DNA of 64,000 nucleotides from Adhaeribacter rhizoryzae (lineage in GTDB: Bacteria > Bacteroidota > Bacteroidia > Cytophagales > Hymenobacteraceae). Location: positions 62,001 to 126,000 of the forward strand of contig NZ_VWSF01000002.1 in NCBI RefSeq assembly GCF_008629685.1, written 5' to 3'. Below the pieces are notes generated by a model. That model was not told the origin of the DNA. It did not search any database and saw nothing but the letters and a program-made list of their open reading frames with translations. Below are positions 4,620 through 48,515 of the stretch, one piece after another; the first letter of the stretch is position 1; each line of letters opens with the position of its first letter. Made by a program: the position numbers and the translations under genes.

Positions 4620-4785
4620 AATAATACCACTATAAAAGAGAAAGTGTGCTTAAAAACGAATTTTGGTCATCCTGAGCTTGTCGAAGGATCTATAACAGCA
4701 TTGTAAAGTAGATTTAGATGTTTCGGCAAGCTCAACATGACTACAATAATGTAAGCGCATAAACCTTAGAATAAGTGGTATTATT
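4620..4785. repeat. composite palindromic intergenic repeat (REP/MITE-like)
   Basis: Nested inverted repeat of about 166 bases. The outer arms are aataataccact (4620-4631) and its exact reverse complement (4774-4785). The inner arms are gtcatcctgagcttgtcgaa (4666-4685) and its imperfect complement (4722-4741). The inner core closely matches the core of the inverted repeats around the GIY-YIG gene at 47988-48515, so it belongs to a dispersed family. It sits between two converging genes. Confidence 0.75.
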
Positions 4786-15304: not shown

Positions 15305-15569
15305 GTATTTATTTTATGGCCGATAAGCCACAATTGTTGGCGCCAATTTAGCGGAGCGTAACTGGTGTCTGTTTATGACAGGAAGTTTTTAACTTCCGGC
15401 AGTTGGAGACTTCTTTTTATTTATTTCTAATAGCAGAAAGTGACGCGAGTGGTAGTTCTATATTCTAATTTAAATTTCCTTGTTGCTGCCGCCCTTGAAT
15501 CAGCAAAATAGGTTCCTCCTGAATGACAATATTTAGTGAATTACCACTTAGTAAATATTATGTATTGCC

Positions 15570-23827: not shown

Positions 23828-24559
23828 TTTTATATTGGTTCATTATTTCTGTTTTGAACAGACTCTTATGCCCTTAGTCGTATTATCACCGCCAACTTCA
23901 AAGCTTGCTTGCTGGTGTCGCCGGCGCAGCGTATTGGCTTCAGCCAATTAGTATTTCAGCCAAATTATTAACTGAAGTTATGCAAATGTTGAAAAAACAG
24001 GTTTAATGAACCCAATACTGTCATTCAGAAGGAACCTATTTAGCAGGTAACCAAATAGTTTCCTCCTGAATGACAGGGGTGGGCTCCTCTGACTAATATA
24101 CTGTTCAGAAGAATTTTTACGTAACAACACAAACTAAATATTAACAGCTTCTTTCTTTGAGAGAAGTAAAAGGCATGTAAATTAATATTAGTGTACTAAT
24201 ACTTTTCCTGACTTATAAATATTTTATCTACTTAGCAGGTGCTTATCTTCCTGGTATATTAAAAAAAACTAAAGGAAAAGTTATTTTTCGCCCTTGTTTT
24301 GGTTTGATTATACATTATATATTTCTATATTTAAGCTATAGCGAGTATGGTTTGCCTGCTTGCTGTATTTCCATTTCGACCCCATTTAAACCTTTAAAAC
24401 ACCATTTGCTAAATAGGCCTTCCGCAGCTTTAATAAATTGCTGGCTTGGGTATGTTGCAATACGCTCCTGATTGGATAATTTTCTTTTGTGCTGTAGCTT
24501 ATTAATAATAAAGGTTTACATAATCCTGTAATGAATATTTAAATATTAAATGGTGCATT
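23828..24559. other. intergenic region with palindromic repeat, upstream of susC-like gene
   Basis: About 730 bases with no gene. It contains a short dyad attggct-tc-agccaat (23933-23948), the palindromic element at 24018-24076, and a long AT-rich stretch that should hold the promoter of the SusC-like gene. A weak dyad tattagt-gt-actaata lies at 24186-24201. No regulator gene is present. Confidence 0.55.
24018..24076. repeat. palindromic element of the TGTCATTCAGGAGGAA family
   Basis: Arms of 24 bases (24018-24041 and 24053-24076) are complementary at 22 positions. A related, longer element lies at 44163-44290 and a single half-arm at 15507-15528, so this is a dispersed REP-like family in non-coding DNA. 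Confidence 0.75.
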
Positions 24560-47507: not shown

Positions 47508-47987
47508 GGGAGTTAATATTTGTGCCTGTACTAATCAGATAAATAACGCCCGAAGGTACAATATGTTTTGAGGAATTTTGCCGGCAATGCGCTTTACTGA
47601 AACAGCAAATATTACTTTACGGTTAAGTATCAAATCACCTCCTCACTCTTTAGCCAAGGAGGGGAACCGAGCTGATGAATAAGTAGCGGTTTTTCTGAGA
47701 AATTAGGGCACTGTTTATGATGTTAGCCAACAGTAACGCGTGAAATATTGATCTTTACTCTATTAATTATTTACTACTTTTACTTTTAATACCTCTCACT
47801 TTTATTCCTTCTTTTTTTACTGCTTTTCACTGGTTTAACCGCCGGCCTGTAATTTGTAGGAGTTCTTTTCTTCGCTGCGTATTTCAGCTAAAAATCAGCT
47901 AGAAGTTCTATTAACCACCAACCCGTAATATTTAAGAAAGGATTATTTCGAACCTAATGAGAAATCAATTACAACCGAAATCACCAA
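47508..47987. other. intergenic region, no gene seen
   Basis: About 480 bases upstream of the TonB-receptor gene. No coding frame is supported. An isolated cctcctcactctttagccaaggaggg stretch near 47638 may be another repeat half. The right end runs into the inverted repeat at 47988. The sequence ccaaccc followed by gtaatatttaagaaagga (near 47920) partly resembles the start of that repeat. Confidence 0.5.
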
Positions 47988-48515
47988 CCCGAAATGCTTA
48001 GGAAAAATGCCGGCTTACGCGTCATCCCGAGCCTGTCGAGGGAACTATTACCGCAATTTTAGCTAACCTTTAACAGAATCCTTATGGCTATTCAAATGCC
48101 AGCTCATTTAAGAACTTTAAGTTTGGATTCTGCTTTCGGATTAAGGCTTCTTTCTTACTGCGGCTCCAGCCTTTGAGTTGCTTTTCCCGGTCGATAGCTT
48201 GGTTAGGGGAAGGGTAGCGTTCAAAATAAATAAGGTTATAACAGAAATATTTGCCGGCGAAAGTGCCAGGCTTACCACTATTCTCAAAGTGCTCGGTTAA
48301 GCGTCTTGGTAAATCGTTTGTTACACCAATGTAATAGGTGGTGCGGTTTGGGTTGGTGGTGATGTAAACAAAATAGTTGTGGTTAAACATAACTGTTTAT
48401 GTATAAAGAAGCAACTATAAGATAAGGGCAGAAGTTCCTGAAATAATTGCTGTAATAGATCCCTCGACAGGCTCGGGATGACGCGTAAGCCGGCGTTTTT
48501 CCTAAGCATTTCGGG
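47988..48515. mobile_element. inverted-repeat unit enclosing a GIY-YIG nuclease gene
   Basis: The left arm (47988-48058) and the right arm (48445-48515) are inverted copies 71 bases long that match at 68 positions. The arms contain the palindrome-prone core gtcatcccgagcctgtcgag, related to the inner arms of the repeat at 4620-4785. Inside is one complete gene, a GIY-YIG nuclease (48088-48390), and little else. The unit is about 528 bases and has the form of a small mobile or self-spreading element. No target-site duplication was recognised. Confidence 0.65.
48088..48390 (-). CDS. GIY-YIG domain nuclease, small stand-alone type
   Basis: A 100-residue protein consisting only of a GIY-YIG endonuclease domain (UPF0213/YhbQ-like). 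The first signature is FVYITT and YYIGVTNDLPRRLTEH, with the catalytic Tyr and the Arg after the second motif; IDREKQLKGWSRSKKEALI supplies the conserved metal-binding Glu. Family members cut DNA, or are of unknown role when this short. The gene fills most of the space between two 71-base inverted repeats that begin about 30 bases and 55 bases from its ends. The association resembles that of a transposase-like enzyme with its repeat and is the basis of the main finding. Confidence 0.92.
   Translation of the reverse strand: MFNHNYFVYITTNPNRTTYYIGVTNDLPRRLTEHFENSGKPGTFAGKYFCYNLIYFERYPSPNQAIDREKQLKGWSRSKKEALIRKQNPNLKFLNELAFE

Follow-up and report, generated by a model that had tools for sequence, protein, structure and literature searches.

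Does the small nuclease gene that lies between two inverted repeats in this genome form a unit with them, or is it an ordinary gene in a place where repeats are common? The window, i.e., the whole stretch of 64,000 nucleotides that was analysed, comes from a 6.5 Mb genome of Adhaeribacter (Bacteroidota). As stated in the original prediction, and confirmed by arm alignment and a profile match to PF01541, a gene for a GIY-YIG nuclease of 100 residues (48088-48390, minus strand) is enclosed by inverted arms of 71 bases that match at 68 positions, or 96% (left arm, 47988-48058, plus strand; right arm, the left arm inverted, 48445-48515, minus strand). It is the sole gene between the arms, and ungapped extension of the inverted match reached 107 nt with 83% identity. 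The left arm begins with 33 nt particular to the locus and continues into a CGTC-tagged REP, GTCATCCCGAGCCTGTCGAGGGAACTATT, reading inward. The arm core, TCATCCYGAGC..GTCGARGGA, was found in the window at 48022-48043 (plus strand, left arm), 48460-48481 (minus strand, right arm) and 4667-4688 (plus strand), and not once in shuffled windows. The prediction had spoken of 71-base inverted repeats. Only the portion that begins with GTCAT and extends inward turned out to be dispersed, while the 33 nt outside it in each arm gave no other match in the genome at E 0.001. A different sequence of 27 nt (AACCACCAACCCGTAAT...) is present in three direct copies at 47837, 47913 and 47979, a series that runs up to the left arm and overlaps its start.

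CGTC REPs form a superfamily that includes dRS3 and spans several phyla, with Neisseria, Rickettsia and Bacteroidota among the hosts; they carry the tag CGTC or TGTC and a stem of 8-9 bp whose first letters are AT, and they occur mainly as head-to-head dimers, sometimes within longer palindromes (PMC3733652). The arms studied here have a tag (C/T)GTC, a stem of the form AT-NNN...N'N'N'-A, an arrangement mostly in head-to-head pairs, and an occasional position inside longer palindromes. The window arm reads CGTC-AT-CCC, and GTCAT is common to the arms throughout the relatives. They differ from the surveyed REPs in their shorter stems and in a tail that is often CTATT or CT, not CCA. The stem of the window arm comprises 4-5 bp with a longer loop; it starts with AT, and its first letters covary. 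Over 160 arms, complementarity between the three letters after GTCAT and the three before the 3' anchor was 90%, against 45% when stem halves were re-dealt (52% in the largest of 1000 re-dealings). Since 11 different triplets occur fully paired, pairing is kept while the stem letters change. Single arms folded as single-stranded DNA were predicted to be no more stable than shuffles, owing to stems of only 4-5 bp; folding energy thus gives a stable single-arm hairpin no support, and although the unit as a whole folds strongly, this only restates the presence of the arms. We treat the arms, on their sequence features, as CGTC-type REPs with a shorter stem.

The protein itself matched PF01541 with 63.5 bits (E 2.3e-17, profile search) and was predicted to fold with good confidence (pLDDT 88.5). 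The residues conserved in GIY-YIG nucleases were kept in nearly all of 160 relatives (Y9 in 96%, Y20, R30 and E69 in 99% each, N88 in 97%). The nearest solved structure is the UPF0213 protein 1zg2 (UPF0213 matches, PDB 1zg2 and 1ywl: profile E 4.5e-7, Foldseek E 1.2e-4), followed by weaker resemblance to Slx1, UvrC and I-TevI and by weak matches to homing endonuclease families. A dN/dS of about 0.06, alike in moved and unmoved pairs and only a rough ratio because dS is near 1, points to a gene under selection. A phage origin was rejected, as the nuclease had no match in 50,697 phage records and only weaker matches, at 13 loci, in IMG/VR. PADLOC gave no convincing match to a defence system and Rfam no match to a structured RNA, and both candidates were dropped.

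The association of gene and arms was followed at three levels. Firstly, the host genome has 8 matches to PF01541. Four are small stand-alone genes, one of them with stops, and all four have inverted arms close by; no inverted pair flanks the gene in this way at the other four. The arms of the four small genes differ in sequence and have in common GTCAT and a paired stem, often with ACTATT. Secondly, the small GIY-YIG genes of this type in the genus, 12 of them intact and one interrupted by stops, all have a palindromic repeat on both sides, in inverted orientation. Inverted-match scores were 21-71 in 12 of the 13 and 15 in one, against shuffle maxima of 13-18; the weakest arms, those of L080, are barely above their own shuffles. 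Thirdly, among 80 named relatives the score was at least 20 at 53 loci, compared to 0.1% of 890 shifted positions at the same loci, and the motif GTCAT-X3-loop-X3'-A.C pointed inward on both sides at 50 loci, compared to none of the 890. In the bacterial family to which the host belongs, distant GIY-YIG paralogues had the motif on neither side (0 of 19). The control comprises 19 loci; L342, the twentieth fetched, was left out as a closer relative by score, and it has the motif. Homologues of the nuclease that usually lacked arms would have spoken against the original prediction, and this is not what we found. Approximately one third of the 80 relatives have no clear arm pair. At the nuclease genes L247, L248, L250-L254 and L258 the inward motif was seen on the 3' side alone, with no matching left arm. 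Beyond Bacteroidota, homologues were found in Sinorhizobium, Shinella, Planktothrix, Aeromonas and Neisseria gonorrhoeae, several of them with such repeats beside the gene; the alphaproteobacterial homologues L220 and L221 had none beside theirs. The plasmid-collection records of N. gonorrhoeae (2.2 Mb, L217) and Aeromonas caviae (4.9 Mb, L223) look like entire chromosomes labelled as plasmids. The 2013 survey by Di Nocera et al. reported no associated enzyme, and CGTC REPs have apparently been without a dedicated transposase (PMC3733652), whereas the arms described here are consistently accompanied by a GIY-YIG gene.

The type of nuclease also goes with the type of repeat. Arms resembled each other more within one element (0.67) than between elements (0.22), and protein similarity correlated with arm similarity (Mantel r 0.54, permutation maximum 0.13), a test in which host relatedness is still included. 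The match between clade and repeat within the genus is the cleaner test. Repeats of the TCATCCYGAGC type are abundant only where the corresponding nuclease clade occurs, i.e., 93 in the host genome G000 and 14 in G002, compared to 0-6 in the others. The GGARGRAACTA type is found in every genome of the genus except G002, the sole genome with only the TCATCCYGAGC-type clade, to which its single nuclease belongs. G002 is Adhaeribacter aquaticus: over 3.3 kb its unit L078 shows no difference from L129, a locus recorded under that name. Judged from these comparisons, each repeat type is tied to its own GIY-YIG nuclease as a cognate pair.

Most of the repeats have no gene. Pattern searches gave genome-wide counts of 93 copies of the core family and 260 of another family. 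Only one pair among the 93 core copies encloses a GIY-YIG gene; the original prediction had regarded an arm that occurs mostly without the gene as adverse, and REP/RAYT systems look likewise. Pairs of the core family at most 250 bp apart were head-to-head in 15 of 16 cases, and the doublets of the sister type had spacings near 52 or 132 bp. The window contains one such gene-less head-to-head doublet of the sister type at 4620-4785 (core 4667-4688), within a longer AT-rich palindrome, and the link originally drawn between this repeat and the arms was right. A second gene-less head-to-head doublet, at 24021-24073, belongs to another repeat type of the host genome (TCATTCAGRAGGAA.CTA), which encloses the L088 nuclease gene, and a lone copy of that type lies at 15509-15526 on the minus strand. 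Gene-less doublets outnumber nuclease genes many times, as with REPINs. Repeats persist without the nuclease, since G005 and G007 carry repeats and have no nuclease gene; in nuclease-free genomes both single copies and doublets are kept. At several doublets of the arms' repeat type (L021, L017, L020) the two arms are bordered on the outside by a further inverted repeat, whose sequence changes from locus to locus, with approximately 27 identical nt in L020. These outer palindromes resemble the 41 bp palindromes that contain the CGTC-1 dimers of H. neapolitanus (PMC3733652), and either insertion into palindromes or arm-to-arm correction could explain them.

Comparison of element pairs at least 72% identical separated two situations. 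In 70 pairs at unrelated sites the alignment covers the gene and the arms and then stops on both sides, while in 53 pairs it runs far past the unit on at least one side, which marks the same site. Of the alignment ends in the 70 pairs, 90% lay within 15 nt of a GTCAT start; for random points the figure was 33%. The unit, i.e., the gene with two head-to-head REPs, approximately 0.4-0.5 kb, thus appears to have moved as one block, although recombination at REPs or horizontal transfer could also produce such a block-like dispersal. Gene-less alleles of orthologous sites were found; their absence would have told against the original prediction. At the L100 site the flanks occur without the unit in G041, G047 and G025 of the same genus, and G017 has a gene-less doublet with the same arms; in G041 and G047 no REP of the L100 type occupies the position of the unit. 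Where S. meliloti Ak57 carries REP-gene-REP, Sinorhizobium K101 shows only one REP, between flanks of 95% identity, which may reflect an empty site or equally a deletion. The whole REP-gene cluster of L224 is missing from Shinella H4-D48 (L319). For the window unit, the nearest congener G001 was tried as an empty site; the flanking genes are present with a gap of 580 bp compared to 1143 bp, and the intergenic sequence is too diverged to give an edge. The comparison of the doublet in G025 with G021 was likewise set aside as a clean insertion, as several changes in the region leave no clean edge. No target-site duplication or exact insertion edge could be read at the gene-less sites, where flanks are too diverged or rearranged. 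There were two side observations in this material. A second, unrelated inverted repeat family (GACACTCGTAGGAGCTGCGCACACTACGAGGTC) surrounds the L100 intergenic site in several species (L100, L292, L293, L295), and S. meliloti Ak57 shows an apparent tandem duplication of the unit (L222, approximately 1160-1965), with one nuclease copy reduced to its end.

The nuclease and the CGTC REPs that it would recognise probably represent a single instance of a two-part system that is widespread, a mobile unit with gene-less derivatives. According to this proposal the GIY-YIG enzyme would read the single-stranded REP in each arm through the (C/T)GTC tag and the AT-NNN stem and would cut single strands at the arm REPs; the cuts would allow DNA bounded by REPs, whether or not it includes the gene, to be copied or inserted at other places, and the gene-less head-to-head doublets would be non-autonomous derivatives of the unit. 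RAYT transposases are thought to act in this way on GTAG REPs. The unit resembles the REPtron (RAYT with GTAG REPs and REPINs) in that inverted REPs enclose the enzyme gene, which occurs in few copies beside many gene-less doublets, and in that the enzyme type matches the repeat type (PMC3733652). The difference is in the enzyme and the tag, a HUH tyrosine transposase with GTAG in the REPtron, and GIY-YIG with CGTC or TGTC here. The RAYT-like part that the original prediction gave to the enzyme therefore fits the comparative evidence as regards arms, cognate pairing and block dispersal, while catalysis, cutting of the arms and the resulting transposition are steps that we infer. Comparison of sequences is what carries the association, the specificity, the cognate pairing, the block-like dispersal, the gene-less sites and the selection. 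A wider claim would make small GIY-YIG nucleases the dedicated mobilisers of the CGTC REP superfamily as a whole, as counterparts of the RAYT transposases; we give it somewhat less than an even chance.

The best surviving rival is that the nuclease serves the host. The N. gonorrhoeae homologue, with 37.9% identity to the window protein (E 4e-9), lies among dRS3/CGTC-1-type repeats (also NTS/dRS3-type). We take it to be Ssn, the closest known relative in kind, which Chenal et al. (Nature Communications, 2025) reportedly described as a family of GIY-YIG enzymes that cut single strands site-specifically, with the NTS repeat as target in Neisseria. The kind of enzyme is thus probably known already. 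Both Ssn and the window protein are small stand-alone GIY-YIG proteins whose genes are surrounded by cognate palindromic repeats; the window unit, known from its sequence, would be distinguished by head-to-head REPs that enclose the gene, signs of movement and gene-less derivatives, and we place the protein near Ssn and claim no membership. An Ssn-like enzyme would cut incoming or replicating single-stranded DNA at cognate repeats and so tune uptake and exchange, the repeats would spread otherwise, and the gene would merely lie in a repeat-rich place. The neisserial setting agrees with such a role, as does the part in transformation that Ssn and NTS reportedly play, and the low dN/dS together with syntenic conservation points the same way. 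Taken alone it leaves unexplained the inward arms that flank the gene in most relatives, the unit ends at the arms at unrelated sites and the gene-less doublets at orthologous sites, and we consider it unlikely as the full account. The strong conservation of the gene, at the 53 syntenic pairs included, suggests that the enzyme may serve the host too, and a part played for the host in DNA exchange is still a strong competing explanation, or a complementary one.

Homing into existing REPs is more improbable still. The nuclease would here cut a REP elsewhere, and repair would copy REP-gene-REP into it with the arms as homology, in the manner of homing endonuclease genes. GIY-YIG is a homing endonuclease fold, with the weak family matches noted above, and the single REP of K101 stands exactly at the place of REP-gene-REP in Ak57, but K101 may be a deletion instead, G041 and G047 show no REP of the type at the place of the unit, and most doublets are gene-less, yet must spread too. 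That two repeats landed by chance on either side of an ordinary gene, as the original prediction had allowed and as a genome this rich in both repeat families might suggest, is rejected by the shifted-position and paralogue controls, with next to no probability left.

In the literature searched for a link of GIY-YIG with REP or RAYT, nothing relevant was found. What is new is the comparative evidence for a REPtron-like unit and, in its nuclease, the best candidate enzyme for CGTC REPs. The pairing of repeat type with nuclease and the compactness of the units open the old question of the missing CGTC REP transposase to direct tests. Should the enzyme move the repeats, GIY-YIG proteins would be added to the few enzymes that spread DNA repeats, and if this were true for the whole CGTC REP superfamily, a GIY-YIG enzyme of approximately 100 residues would be driving a kind of transposition in bacteria. 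If it does not mobilise them, the repeats would be recognition sites, and the widespread nuclease that reads them may influence DNA exchange.
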